From positions 1-64,000 of the forward strand of contig JALFSN010000005.1 of NCBI GenBank assembly GCA_022778805.1: a DNA stretch of 64,000 nucleotides, given 5' to 3'. The notes under the pieces are model-generated. The model worked only from the letters and a program-made list of their open reading frames with translations. It had not been told where the DNA came from and searched no databases. Made by a program: the position numbers and the translations under genes. The DNA comes from Arcanobacterium sp. (lineage in GTDB: Bacteria > Actinomycetota > Actinomycetes > Actinomycetales > Actinomycetaceae). Shown here piece after piece: positions 36,168 to 41,211 of the stretch; within the stretch, counting starts at the first letter, position 1, and the number at the start of each line of letters is the position of its first letter.

Positions 36168-37187
36168 ATGAAGCAAAATCTAGTTGCCTACGGATTTCGA
36201 GTGGTGAAGAACGCAAGCTTCAAGAAATTCTCTACCGTGCTCGACGAAGTGCATCAACGCTCCGGAATCCCCAAGCCGGAACTCACCAAAGACATGGTGA
36301 AATCGTTCCTCAAGTACGGAGCCGGATACTACGATTACTCCAACTTCAACTTCTTTGAGCTCACGGATGCTCAACGCGACACGTACATGACCCGTTTCCG
36401 CTCGAAGAAACTCATTACGAAAGTAAACGACCCAAACTATGCGCTGGTGTTCGATAGCAAATCACTTTTCAATGAGGTATTTCGCGATTTTATCCGTCGC
36501 GATTTCTTGAAAGTGGATAGCGCCGACGATGAAGAATGCGAACGCTTCTTCAATGCTCACGATGAATACTTCGCCAAGATGGATGGTCTGGAAGCTGGCG
36601 CTGGCGCAGAGCTCTTGAAGAAGGAAAATTTTGCTGATGCCGCGCAGTTCACCGCATATATTCGCGGAAAGAAGTTCGGGGTCGTCGAGCAGGTGCTCAA
36701 GAATCATCCGGACCTGGCCGCCGTCTACAATGGTTCGCTCAACACCATGCGAATGATTACTCTCATTGACGATTCCGGCGAACCGCATCTGCTGTTTGCC
36801 GCACAAAAATTCGGGATTAGCGGCCGTTTTGTCGATGTGTATGGAGCGCATGGCCCTGTGGATTTGGAAACGGGAGAGTTCCTCTACCCTGCCCGCCACG
36901 GCGTCATTACGGACGGCATTGAGTATTCGGAGCATCCGGATACTGGCGTACTGCTGGTGGGATTCCACACGCCACTCTTCCAGGAAGCGAAAGAGTTTGT
37001 CTTACGCGCAGCCAAAGTAGTACCACAGATGCGCTACGTGGGATGGGACGTAGCCGTGACGCCGGACGGCCCTGCCATTGTCGAAGGCAACAACTACAGC
37101 GCTCACGATTACTGGCAGCTCCCAGGCCAAAATCCCTCAAAGATAGGGATTATGCCGACGATTCGCAAGTATGTGCACGGCATGTGA
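36168..37187 (+). CDS. ATP-grasp enzyme, sugar-transfer-associated type
   Basis: This 339-residue protein resembles the ATP-grasp group often found with polysaccharide genes (ATPgrasp_ST). The C-terminal half carries the fold: SLNTMRMITLIDDSGEPHLL near residue 190, then VGWDVAVTPDGPAIVEGN near 300, where the Asp, Glu and Asn would bind magnesium-ATP. The N-terminal half (RSKKLITKVNDPNYALVFDS) is typical of the same group. Such enzymes join a carboxylate to an amine or similar. The binding site before the ATG is weak (AAAGAAAG). It converges with the racemase gene and precedes MurT-GatD, so a role in cell-wall or surface-polymer decoration is plausible but unproven. Confidence 0.8.
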   Translation: MKQNLVAYGFRVVKNASFKKFSTVLDEVHQRSGIPKPELTKDMVKSFLKYGAGYYDYSNFNFFELTDAQRDTYMTRFRSKKLITKVNDPNYALVFDSKSLFNEVFRDFIRRDFLKVDSADDEECERFFNAHDEYFAKMDGLEAGAGAELLKKENFADAAQFTAYIRGKKFGVVEQVLKNHPDLAAVYNGSLNTMRMITLIDDSGEPHLLFAAQKFGISGRFVDVYGAHGPVDLETGEFLYPARHGVITDGIEYSEHPDTGVLLVGFHTPLFQEAKEFVLRAAKVVPQMRYVGWDVAVTPDGPAIVEGNNYSAHDYWQLPGQNPSKIGIMPTIRKYVHGM

Positions 37188-37260: not shown

Positions 37261-38346
37261 TCAGTTGCCAGCGAGGCGCGAACGCAGAGAGATATCGAAA
37301 CCCCCATGAGTAAATCCACTCGCCACGGCAGAGTAGTCGAGTGAGAATTCCATGGTGGAACCAAGGTGATAATTGCGCTTGCTGTCAGTGACGTCGCAGA
37401 CGGCATAGTCACTGGAAGCTCCTAGAATCTCCACGCCAGGGTCAAGGGGGCGCACACCATCGAGATACATCGACTGACGCCCCATCACGACGAGCGCCCG
37501 CTTCCTGCGGCCTTTATCTTCAAACTCTGGCTCCTCGCCAAAAGCCGCACCATTACCCACTGCTCCCCACGGCAATGACGGCTTCTCTTTCACTTCGACG
37601 ATTTCCGTCTCCAAGGTGAATGGGTGCTGCGCGAGCCACGGAATGTCTTCCTCATAGCATGGCAGACGTCCAAAGAGAATAGACTCTCCGCAGCGCAGAT
37701 TAGTGACGGCGGAAGGCAACGTGTCCTCTTCAAGCATCCGCAGCGAGCTGGAGTTTCCTCCTGAGACGATGTCGAGTTCCCGCCCAATTGAGCGCTGCAC
37801 CAGTTCCACTTTTTCTGCCAGATCCGCCATATTCTCCACGCCCGGCAAAATATTGCCATAGCAGCTCACGTTAGTGCCGATACCGGCGAGCTGCACATGC
37901 TTCAGCTGTTCGATGTGCTGCGTGAGTTGCACCAATTCTGTATTTTCTACTCCCTCACGCAGATCCCCCACTTCTGCCATCACCAGCACTGAATAACGTT
38001 GATCATGCGCTTCGCAGTATTCCTCGATACGATCTGCTGTGAGGTGATCAGAGATCATACACATATCCGTGAGCTCGACCAGTTCCGGAATCTCCTCCAT
38101 CATCGGAATCCGGATAAACCACTTCTCTTTTGGCACGTCCGCATAGGCACGCACATGCTCCAAACTGGCATCGGCCAGCGCCCGTACGGGAGCTGCCGCA
38201 ATCCTCCTAATGAGGGGGGCATACCCTGCCACGCCTTTGACCACTGCCGCGATGTCTACACCACGCTGAGCTCCCAGTTGGGCGATACTCACAGCGTTCG
38301 CAACGATTCGATCGTCGTCAATCACAATTCGGGGGAAAGCACTCAT
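37261..38346 (-). CDS. PLP-dependent alanine/ornithine racemase family protein
   Basis: The protein belongs to the fold-III PLP enzymes that include ornithine racemase (Orr). It begins with an alanine-racemase-type barrel: VDIAAVVKGVAGYAP (PLP Lys about 41), then GTNVSCYGNILPG and VSGGNSSSLRML, which are marks of the Orr group, and NLRCGESILFGRLP. The start at 38346 gives 361 residues; another ATG four codons upstream is nearly as good. The longer frame is not supported. It is the only minus-strand gene in the 36-54 kb block and is divergent from murT, sharing an intergenic region with repeats. Which amino acid it racemises cannot be told from sequence. Confidence 0.85.
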   Translation of the reverse strand: MSAFPRIVIDDDRIVANAVSIAQLGAQRGVDIAAVVKGVAGYAPLIRRIAAAPVRALADASLEHVRAYADVPKEKWFIRIPMMEEIPELVELTDMCMISDHLTADRIEEYCEAHDQRYSVLVMAEVGDLREGVENTELVQLTQHIEQLKHVQLAGIGTNVSCYGNILPGVENMADLAEKVELVQRSIGRELDIVSGGNSSSLRMLEEDTLPSAVTNLRCGESILFGRLPCYEEDIPWLAQHPFTLETEIVEVKEKPSLPWGAVGNGAAFGEEPEFEDKGRRKRALVVMGRQSMYLDGVRPLDPGVEILGASSDYAVCDVTDSKRNYHLGSTMEFSLDYSAVASGFTHGGFDISLRSRLAGN

Positions 38347-38378
38347 CGTTCCAGTCATTCTCCAATACGCTCGTGTGG

Positions 38379-38410
38379 CAATACTCTTGCGCGACAATAC
38401 TCTTGCCGAT
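38379..38410. repeat. Tandem 16-bp duplication upstream of the racemase gene
   Basis: CAATACTCTTGCGCGA (38379-38394) is followed by CAATACTCTTGCCGAT (38395-38410). A weaker third copy, CAATACGCTCGTGTGG, lies at 38363-38378. The array is in the 5' leader region of the racemase gene. Confidence 0.8.
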
Positions 38411-38596: not shown

Positions 38597-40210
38597 GTGA
38601 ACACAATTCGTTTTTTTGCCGCATTAATGACAGCTAAAATTGCAGCGCTAGCACTGAAAATCACACATCACAACGGCACCCAGCTCCCCGGCAGTTTGGC
38701 CATCAAAATCTGCCCTGATTTTCTTGGTCGCGTCGCCCACCCGCGTACCATCGTTGCCGTGACGGGGACCAACGGAAAAACTACCGTGGCAAATCTTATC
38801 GTCGATGGTATGGAAGCCTCCGGCAGACGAGTGTTGAGCAACAAATTAGGCTCTAATCTGCACACGGGCGTGGCATCTGCGCTAGCAGCTGGCGTCACAA
38901 TCTTCAACAAACAGCGTTTTTCTATGGCCGTTCTGGAGTGTGACGAACGGGCCACCCCGCGAATTTTTCCCTATCTCACTCCCGATCTGCTCGTCGTCAC
39001 CAATCTTTTCCGTGATTCCGTGCAGCGCAATGCCCACAGCGACTACATCTTCTGGATTCTGGAGCACGCCCTTCCGCCGTCCACAAAGCTGCTCCTCAAT
39101 GCTGACGACGTCATTTCCTCTCGTCTGGGACTCGCAGCTGGCAACGAGCGCGTTTTCTTCGGCATTGATCGCATGCCGACTGATCGCACGCACTCGCGCG
39201 ATATTGTGAACGACGGTCGCACCTGCCCGCAATGTCGCCATTTACTCACTTACGAATACGTGCGCTATCACCATATTGGCCGCGCCCACTGCGAGTACTG
39301 CGGCTGGCATTCTCCCGACTATGATTACGCCGGCACTAACGTCGATATCGACCACATGCACTTGGACGTGCGCGAATCAGCAGCGGTGGCTTCCTTAGCT
39401 TCCCCTGCTGCTCCCCTGCCCGAGTCAGCTGTGTCTACTCCGCCTAGCTCGGCTGGCGATGTCACCGTTCCAACTGCACCTACTCTGCCTACCTCAGCCG
39501 ATACCCCTGAAGCCGCTGGGAGTGCACCCGCAGCCACGACACAGCACACACATGAGCAATCGCTGGCACATCTGCGCATTCTCAACAGTGGCATTCACAA
39601 TATATACAACGTTGTGACGGCGTACGCAGCACTGCGCGAATGCGGGGTGCAGCACGATGACGCAGAACGCATTATGCGCGATATTCAGATCACTAAGACT
39701 CGTTATTCTATCGAGCCAGTGGGCGATGTATACGCTGGCAATCAAATGGCAAAAGACGTCAATGGCGTGGCCAACTCGCGCGCCTTTGACTATCTCGCCA
39801 GTTTGCCTGGACGCAAAGAGCTGATTTTAATGATGGGCGATCTGCGCGACGTGAAAGACTTTTCAGAAAATCCCTGCTGGATGTATGACGCCGATTTCGA
39901 ATATCTCAACACTCCAGAGATCACTCACATCGTCGTGACCGGAGCACGCGGCAAAGACTATCGGGTGCGTTTACTTCTCGCAGGCATACCTGATGAGCGT
40001 ATCAGCTATGCCGCGAGAGAAATTGACGCACCTCGGCAGCTGCATTTCGAGCCAGGAGAAAGTATATACGTACTACATGGCGTGGATTCCGTACCGTTAG
40101 CTACACGCGTGCTACAGGACGTGAAAAAACTCGCGTTGGCAGCAGCTGAACGTCGTACCCACTCACACGCTGCCGCCTCTCACACCTCGGCAACGAAGGA
40201 GCAGCGATGA
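38597..40210 (+). CDS. murT: Divergent MurT-like Mur ligase (lipid II amidotransferase ligase subunit)
   Basis: MurT is the ATP-dependent ligase that, with GatD, amidates D-glutamate of lipid II. This 537-residue homologue has the ATP loop GTNGKTT (57-63) and the MurT-specific zinc ribbon with CPQC (210-213) and CEYC (232-235). The C-terminal DADFE motif, which carries the Asp thought to complete the GatD active site, is kept (431-435). However the usual KNPAG motif reads KDVNG, and the usual NDxxADGRD segment reads MMGDLRDVKD. An Ala/Pro/Ser/Thr-rich insert occupies about 260-320. GTG start; overlap of four bases with the GatD-like gene. Confidence 0.85.
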   Translation: MNTIRFFAALMTAKIAALALKITHHNGTQLPGSLAIKICPDFLGRVAHPRTIVAVTGTNGKTTVANLIVDGMEASGRRVLSNKLGSNLHTGVASALAAGVTIFNKQRFSMAVLECDERATPRIFPYLTPDLLVVTNLFRDSVQRNAHSDYIFWILEHALPPSTKLLLNADDVISSRLGLAAGNERVFFGIDRMPTDRTHSRDIVNDGRTCPQCRHLLTYEYVRYHHIGRAHCEYCGWHSPDYDYAGTNVDIDHMHLDVRESAAVASLASPAAPLPESAVSTPPSSAGDVTVPTAPTLPTSADTPEAAGSAPAATTQHTHEQSLAHLRILNSGIHNIYNVVTAYAALRECGVQHDDAERIMRDIQITKTRYSIEPVGDVYAGNQMAKDVNGVANSRAFDYLASLPGRKELILMMGDLRDVKDFSENPCWMYDADFEYLNTPEITHIVVTGARGKDYRVRLLLAGIPDERISYAAREIDAPRQLHFEPGESIYVLHGVDSVPLATRVLQDVKKLALAAAERRTHSHAAASHTSATKEQR

Positions 40211-41211
40211 ACGATACCTCTTTGACGATCGAAATTCTCTACCCTGAACTGGCTAATCTTTATGGCGAGCTGGCAAATGCTCATTTTCTAGCACGCGCAG
40301 CGCGAGAATCGGGCGCCGACGTCACTATTATTGAGACTCCCGTGACTGATACCCCGCATTTCCTCGATGGATCTGTAGACTTTGTCTACATCGGAGCCAT
40401 GCCGGAAACCGCGCAAGTGGTGATCAGCGATGCGCTTCGCCCCCATACGGCAGCCATTCGCGCGAGGATTGACGCCGGCCAGATTATCCTCGCCACCGGC
40501 AACGCCGTGGAGATTTTTGGGCAGGGAATGGAATCGGCAGATCTCGAAGGATTTCAGGGGCTGGGGTTGTTTCCCGCTCTGGCACATATCGATCTATGGA
40601 AGCGCCATAACTCGTTTTACGTCGGCACTTTCGAGCGAACATCTACCCCACGTGTGCCGCCTACGCATTCCACGGCTTCCATACCGGAACAGCAGACAGA
40701 TGCTGGTAGACTGCCGAAGCTCACAGCGGATGGCCAGCAGGTATCTGCGGCAGCAAATTCCCCCGCTACCGTGCAGATCGTCGGGTTTAAGAGCCAATTC
40801 GGGCACTCTACTTTTACCAGCTCTGCTGGCTCTGCTCACGCTCGCTTGGCCAGCTCTGAAAACGCACACTCGACTGCCCCATACCATGCGCGTGAACAGT
40901 ATCCGCCATTGTTCCGCACTATCCGCGGTATGAGTTTCAGCGGACAGCCCGTCGATCGAGCCGCCAGCACTCCTGCTCGTCACAGCATCGGTAGCAGCAT
41001 CGCAGAGGACGGCGAAGGCGTACGCATCCAGAATTTTATGGGCACCTATCTGATCGGGCCGCTTCTGATACTCAGCCCGCTTTTCACACAGGAGCTTTTA
41101 CGAATGTTGGGTATTGAGCAACCGCAGCTGCCGTATGAAGACGCCGTCTATGACGCTTTTGACGCTCGCTTGCACGAATTCATGGAGCCCACCCGCCACT
41201 TTTCTATCTGA
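40207..41211 (+). CDS. GatD-like protein lacking glutaminase catalytic residues
   Basis: GatD is the glutaminase that supplies ammonia to MurT. This 334-residue partner aligns clearly (LYPELANLYGELAN, IVGFKSQFGHSTF, GTYLIGPLLI), but three key residues are changed. The Cys nucleophile is Gly98 (ILATGNAVEIFGQ), the catalytic His is Ile283 (GTYLIGP in place of GTYLHGP) and the glutamine-gating Arg is His200. The GGG segment reads GAMPE. Two Ser/Ala/Thr-rich inserts (about 145-188 and 203-262) explain the excess over the usual 240 residues. ATGA overlap with the MurT-like gene indicates coupled translation. It should be unable to hydrolyse glutamine. Confidence 0.85.
   Translation: MNDTSLTIEILYPELANLYGELANAHFLARAARESGADVTIIETPVTDTPHFLDGSVDFVYIGAMPETAQVVISDALRPHTAAIRARIDAGQIILATGNAVEIFGQGMESADLEGFQGLGLFPALAHIDLWKRHNSFYVGTFERTSTPRVPPTHSTASIPEQQTDAGRLPKLTADGQQVSAAANSPATVQIVGFKSQFGHSTFTSSAGSAHARLASSENAHSTAPYHAREQYPPLFRTIRGMSFSGQPVDRAASTPARHSIGSSIAEDGEGVRIQNFMGTYLIGPLLILSPLFTQELLRMLGIEQPQLPYEDAVYDAFDARLHEFMEPTRHFSI

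Follow-up and report, generated by a model that had tools for sequence, protein, structure and literature searches.

What does a MurT–GatD pair make when its GatD can no longer make ammonia? Canonical MurT activates the alpha-carboxyl of D-Glu with ATP, and ammonia derived from GatD attacks it. In the window, the 64,000-nucleotide stretch of an Arcanobacterium sp. contig that we analysed, a MurT-like gene is coupled to a GatD-like gene whose glutaminase site has gone. The attachment site of the cross-link divides bacterial walls into group A and group B, and we know of no enzyme that, in group B, attaches the initial residue to the D-Glu alpha-carboxyl. Group B walls, as set out for the Schleifer and Kandler types, bear an amino acid at that carboxyl (PMC11382707). 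A literature search that was short on subscription journals and preprints returned no description of a MurT/GatD lacking glutaminase, nor of a ligase that adds the initial residue of a group B bridge; since its coverage was partial, this silence is weak evidence of novelty.

A GatD-like subunit without a glutaminase site

The MurT-like ligase subunit (38597..40210, plus strand, 537 aa) carries Mur_ligase_M and MurT_C domains, scoring 65 bits against PF08353 and 32 bits against PF08245, each above the Pfam cut-off. Its stop codon overlaps the start of the GatD-like gene (40207..41211, plus strand, 334 aa) by 4 bases as ATGA, and both frames are intact, as the first-pass annotation had said in calling the gene intact and coupled to a MurT-like partner. 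That annotation also held that the catalytic Cys and His were replaced, which alignment with solved GatD bears out: S. aureus Cys94 corresponds to Gly98 (40498..40500, plus strand) and His189 to Ile283 (41053..41055, plus strand). The oxyanion Gly-Gly-Gly of canonical GatD reads Gly63-Ala64-Met65 (40393..40401, plus strand). Its claim that an Arg had been lost to His200 was mistaken, because the counterpart of the glutamine-binding R128 of S. aureus is Arg133 (40603..40605, plus strand), which is kept. We looked for another Cys and His in the active site and found neither, and a substitute catalytic Cys elsewhere in the subunit is ruled out, there being no cysteine anywhere in the 334-aa protein.

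R128 of S. aureus GatD is reported to be essential, as are C94 and H189 (PMC5871853), and a Cys94Gly change is reported to have abolished amidation (PMC6085368); the window GatD naturally carries Gly at this position, which supports a dead site. Judged from its residues, the site cannot act as a glutaminase. Its loss also supports the first-pass proposal that the pair needs another nitrogen source or another amine. We guess that, through the retained Arg133, GatD may still be able to bind an amino acid.

The GatD fold was confirmed, the predicted model (mean pLDDT 72.9) being nearest to the GatD of MurT/GatD complexes. Against GATase_3 the window GatD scored 17.3 bits, under the Pfam cut-off of 27, and the canonical GatD of a genome of the same genus (L008) scored 106.4 bits. 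NCBIfam equivalog scores for the window pair were 38 of 400 and 194 of 800, with canonical L008 also falling under, at 117–121 and 157–173. With the MurT-GatD of S. aureus, S. pneumoniae and S. pyogenes the window pair shares overlapping genes, Mur ligase middle and MurT_C domains, zinc-ribbon cysteines, the GatD fold, the ligase residues and the Arg128 equivalent; it differs in a GatD without the Cys, His and oxyanion Gly-Gly-Gly and in a MurT with two extra residues in the K-N-P loop and His147 in place of Glu. Insertions rich in Ala, Pro, Ser and Thr, absent from the Bacillota relatives, occupy residues of about 260–322 in the window MurT and of about 146–190 and 204–230 in the window GatD, the latter mostly at low confidence in the predicted model.

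A ligase that looks alive and changed

We call a GatD "dead" when its Cys/His site is lost and "canonical" when Cys and His are present. Among 130 distinct MurT/GatD loci, 84 had Cys and His, 44 were dead (43 having lost both residues and one being truncated before the His), two had Gly with His and none had Cys without His; because similarity to the dead family guided part of their retrieval, 44/130 is not a frequency. The dead loci came from Bacillota and from four Actinomycetaceae genomes.

The ATP and acceptor residues of MurT (K61, N87, E114, D116 and E117) are kept in 43 of the 44 dead pairs, with one gap, and R369 is kept in all 44. Two further positions separate dead from canonical MurT. 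A two-residue insertion between K386 and N389 of the K-N-P loop (residues 387–388; 39755..39760, plus strand, in the window) is diagnostic of the family, being present in 44/44 dead pairs versus 0/84 canonical ones. Position 147, in the loop R144-N145-A146-H147 (39026..39037, plus strand), is His in 38/44 dead pairs and Glu in 83/84 canonical pairs. The K-N-P loop of S. pneumoniae MurT is described as possibly contacting ATP, and the other loop as being without the Mg-binding His of other Mur ligases (PMC6085368); His147 of the dead-pair MurT may play the part of that His. With ligase residues kept and loops altered, the ligase looks alive and changed beside a dead glutaminase.

A family centred on Bacillota

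Searching named genomes with MurT from three members of the window genus gave 13 loci. Two belong to Actinomycetaceae MAGs, of which one bears the title Arcanobacterium sp.; the other 11 belong to Bacillota-like MAGs whose titles are Lachnospiraceae, Clostridium sp., Clostridiales, Erysipelothrix sp. and, surprisingly, Bacteroides sp. Both GatD positions could be read in 12 of the 13 loci, and both were lost in all 12; in the other (L046, genome G005) the gene leaves its contig after the Cys position, and its other half, on a separate contig, is also without the His. MurT_C matches were found in 13/13 genomes and two of them in 7/13, where the second pairs are dead as well. None of the 13 genomes, most of them MAGs, showed a canonical pair. 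The window pair is not a curiosity of one actinomycete; it belongs to a large family centred on Bacillota.

Seven Bacillota MAG genomes (L101–L107 and L047–L054) have two dead pairs each, one by a transaminase and the other by an ATP-grasp gene, as expected of amine-specific paralogues. A different departure is seen in L235, where GatD has Cys and His but the oxyanion Gly-Gly-Gly is replaced by Gly-Thr-Asn; the same genome, G536, also encodes an ordinary GatD (L177).

Ten genomes of the window genus (G000–G009) were compared. Three carry the dead pair, two (G001 and G006) a canonical pair with Cys and His, one (G003) a MurT match whose GatD was left unread, and four no match or a weak one; the presence of MurT/GatD is thus patchy within this single genus. 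A search of 213 Actinomycetaceae genomes with a narrow profile matched 3/213 and missed the dead pair of a further genome, G155, so that its counts are lower bounds.

A lost site would, taken alone, fit a decaying paralogue, and nothing further points that way. Decay is refuted, and we give it next to no weight: the frames are intact and overlapping; the pair holds the only MurT of its genome, where a second intact GatD–MurT pair was looked for and not found; 53–60% identity is kept in two relatives; and replacements such as TGNA and Gly-(Ala/Ser)-Met are conserved across phyla.

Common ancestry of the dead-pair MurT

In a quick maximum-likelihood tree of 80 MurT rows, for which the GatD site was not part of the data, 38/38 dead rows formed one clan with an SH-aLRT of 96, leaving 40 canonical rows and the two Gly/His rows outside; the tree omits 6 near-identical dead rows and 44 of the 84 canonical rows, and L148 sits on a long branch. 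The trio from the window genus is nested among 29 rows (support 100), the rest of which come from Bacillota or from the family sample of G497, the genome that carries the Erysipelothrix MAG locus. This nesting suggests that the dead pair reached the window lineage by transfer from Bacillota.

Genes that accompany dead pairs

Beside the window pair lie two genes that could supply and extend a bridge. The divergent neighbour (37261..38397, minus strand; the true start is perhaps some 17 codons inside) is ornithine-racemase-like, of the Orr family with an Ala_racemase_N domain; its best NCBIfam match is ornithine racemase Orr (NF040742; 332.9 bits, E 2e-99), and it does not reach the curated cut-off of 480 bits. 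Next to it is an ATP-grasp ligase-like gene (36168..37187, plus strand; Pfam ATPgrasp_ST, PF14397). No Rfam match was found in the window.

Orr-like genes occurred in at least 5 of the 213 Actinomycetaceae genomes, namely the three with the dead pair, G155 and G135. In G155 the gene again lies divergently beside a MurT/GatD pair, one whose sequence is very different from that of the window and whose GatD is also dead, with Gly for Cys and Leu for His. The racemase gene of G135 (L149, 7744–8865) has topoisomerase-like and gyrase-like frames on either side, and the 16 kb read there contained no GatD match. Among the 11 Bacillota genomes an Orr-like racemase was matched in one, weakly, so that a general link between dead pairs and this racemase is not borne out there and the amine in Bacillota would have to differ.

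Bacillota have other company. A diaminobutyrate transaminase (TIGR02407, above cut-off in the one gene tested) adjoins GatD in 7 of the 11 genomes, and the second dead pairs are followed by an ATP-grasp homologue with 33% identity to that of the window. Another dead pair, L192, also adjoins an ATP-grasp gene, L186 has three FemAB genes upstream, and in the Erysipelothrix MAG mraY and murD lie directly upstream of the pair. Overall, a transaminase, ATP-grasp, Orr-like or FemAB gene was found within 3.2 kb of 20/45 distinct dead genes (ATP-grasp beside 10, diaminobutyrate transaminase beside 7) versus 0/87 canonical entries, a partial contrast since most canonical loci had flanks of 1.5–2 kb; roughly one dead locus in two lacks all of these neighbours.

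These genes could have nothing to do with the pair, the racemase and ATP-grasp ligase building a group A bridge or another polymer from an amino acid that the adjoining pair does not handle. The racemase is indeed transcribed divergently from the pair, and the PF14397 family is named for polysaccharide loci. We nevertheless think such coincidence quite improbable, because ATP-grasp genes accompany dead pairs in three settings (the window genus, the second pairs of seven Bacillota genomes, and L192) and an Orr-like gene lies beside two very different dead pairs.

MurE was also considered as a separator of dead from canonical genomes. We take the motif DNPR in MurE to mark the use of DAP; it is absent from the MurE of the window genome and likewise from those of the genus relatives with a canonical pair, so that it fails to distinguish the two kinds.

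Dead and canonical pairs exclude each other

The family of G497, which appears to be Erysipelotrichaceae, was sampled with 95 genomes drawn evenly from a larger group. At E 1e-20, 62/95 matched, and among these 21 had a dead GatD only, 41 a canonical GatD only and none had both; in the 33/95 without a match, a weak canonical pair below the cut-off could be missed. Dead and canonical pairs are thus mutually exclusive in this sample, never occurring together. Walls in Erysipelotrichaceae are reported as group B with D-Glu-Gly-L-Lys or D-Glu-L-Asp-L-Lys, and Gly or L-Asp is given on D-Glu for Erysipelothrix rhusiopathiae and Holdemania filiformis, both classed as B1delta (PMC4062643). Three dead-pair genomes, G498 (L114/L128), G496 (L118/L127) and G497 (L119/L129), have two MurE matches above the family cut-off, which in G496 lie on one contig about 3 kb apart.

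The mutual exclusion bears on whether the pair acts on the stem peptide at all, as it could instead join an amino acid or amine to a carboxyl or acceptor other than the stem D-Glu. The acceptor site of MurT is described as poorly known even in canonical complexes (PMC6085368), which leaves room for such a shift, but the location of one pair after mraY–murD, the FemAB genes beside another and the exclusion of the canonical pair all point to the stem, and we consider a different acceptor improbable.

An independent loss of the Cys in a second family

In f19, a family of the window's order sampled over 85 genera with genomes of 0.9 to 4.8 Mb, GatD has Gly for Cys and mostly keeps the His. The genes of one member, G262, best match plasmids of Curtobacterium (83.3%, against 75–76% in other actinobacteria), Clavibacter (79.7%) and Microbacterium (79.3%), from which we infer that f19 is Microbacteriaceae. 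A profile of three f19 GatD matched 281/398 genomes, 117/398 having no match at E 1e-10. Among 71 loci read, a set that leans toward the profile (the 30 best matches, 40 picked across genera, and L241), 69 were without the Cys (58 Gly, 7 Ala, 2 Ser, 1 Asn and 1 Thr), and two, L313 and L318, keep both Cys and His; the His is kept in 55/69 of the Cys-less loci. A racemase-family gene adjoins 13/45 f19 loci, with Ala_racemase domains confirmed in L241. The f19 MurT is placed in the actinobacterial canonical clade and showed no K-N-P loop insertion in the two rows compared, which together indicate an independent origin of the Cys loss. The f19 pairs are therefore like that of the window in having lost the Cys, kept the MurT partner and, at some loci, a racemase-family gene alongside, and unlike it in their separate origin, mostly kept His and, in the two rows compared, uninserted loop. 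A ten-genus table of Microbacteriaceae gives B-type walls with DAB, D-Lys, D-Orn and others, one genus being of unknown structure (PMC7033078).

Discussion

A lost ammonia source, a kept ligase chemistry, altered loops and neighbours concerned with D-Orn, Dab or bridge ligation are most simply read together as an amino acid ligase. We propose, at a probability of roughly 0.58, that the MurT of the dead pair joins an amino acid and not ammonia to the D-Glu alpha-carboxyl, as the first step of a group B bridge. The loss of the site, the kept ligase residues, the common ancestry and the gene company are what we observed; from them we infer what reaction takes place, with which amine, and in what order the steps run. 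GatD would no longer make ammonia, MurT would still activate the D-Glu alpha-carboxyl of the peptidoglycan precursor using ATP, and an amino acid would attack in place of ammonia. This amine would probably be a D-diamino acid in the window lineage, such as D-ornithine or D-lysine from the Orr-like racemase, 2,4-diaminobutyrate in some Bacillota and perhaps glycine in Erysipelothrix-like genomes. The next bridge residue would be added by the ATP-grasp or FemAB neighbour, and GatD would be retained as a structural, perhaps amino-acid-sensing, partner. Arcanobacterium walls are group A, which we counted against the group B reading of the window pair.

The strongest competing reading is of an isoglutaminyl synthase that depends on ammonia: MurT would amidate D-Glu from free ammonia of the ammonia-rich gut, and GatD would persist as a scaffold or channel remnant. 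The kept ligase residues and fold suit it, the hosts of the MAGs appear from their titles to be gut bacteria, and S. aureus MurT is described, in a passage on trypsin, as needing GatD for stability in vitro (PMC6085368). We regard this reading as unlikely, though the least so of the alternatives, as it leaves unexplained the diamino-acid genes beside the pair, the two dead pairs per genome and the loss of the Cys in the presumed Microbacteriaceae. Among the three options of the first-pass annotation, another amine donor is hence best supported, by gene context, with free ammonia ranked lower. A MurT relative working without glutaminase has a parallel in the MurT-like proteins of archaea, which differ in their pseudomurein context and in being described from genomes without any GatD homologue (PMC11915815).

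The amino acid ligase reading may extend beyond the window. In two families whose presumed identity would give them group B walls, GatD is dead in 21/62 matched genomes (the presumed Erysipelotrichaceae) and Cys-less in 69/71 loci read (f19, the presumed Microbacteriaceae). We give even odds to the broader proposal that MurT with a dead GatD is a general starter of group B bridges, which would have had two origins, one in Bacillota, followed by spread to some Actinomycetaceae, and one in Microbacteriaceae.

The dead pair is a glutamine amidotransferase that has retained its dead glutaminase subunit across phyla. If the amino acid ligase reading is true, it would supply the hitherto missing opening step for one of the two major classes of cell-wall cross-link in bacteria. 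Its sequence marker, a Cys-less GatD together with a MurT whose K-N-P loop has two extra residues, would let genomes reveal wall type, and the dead pair provides a named candidate enzyme for assay.
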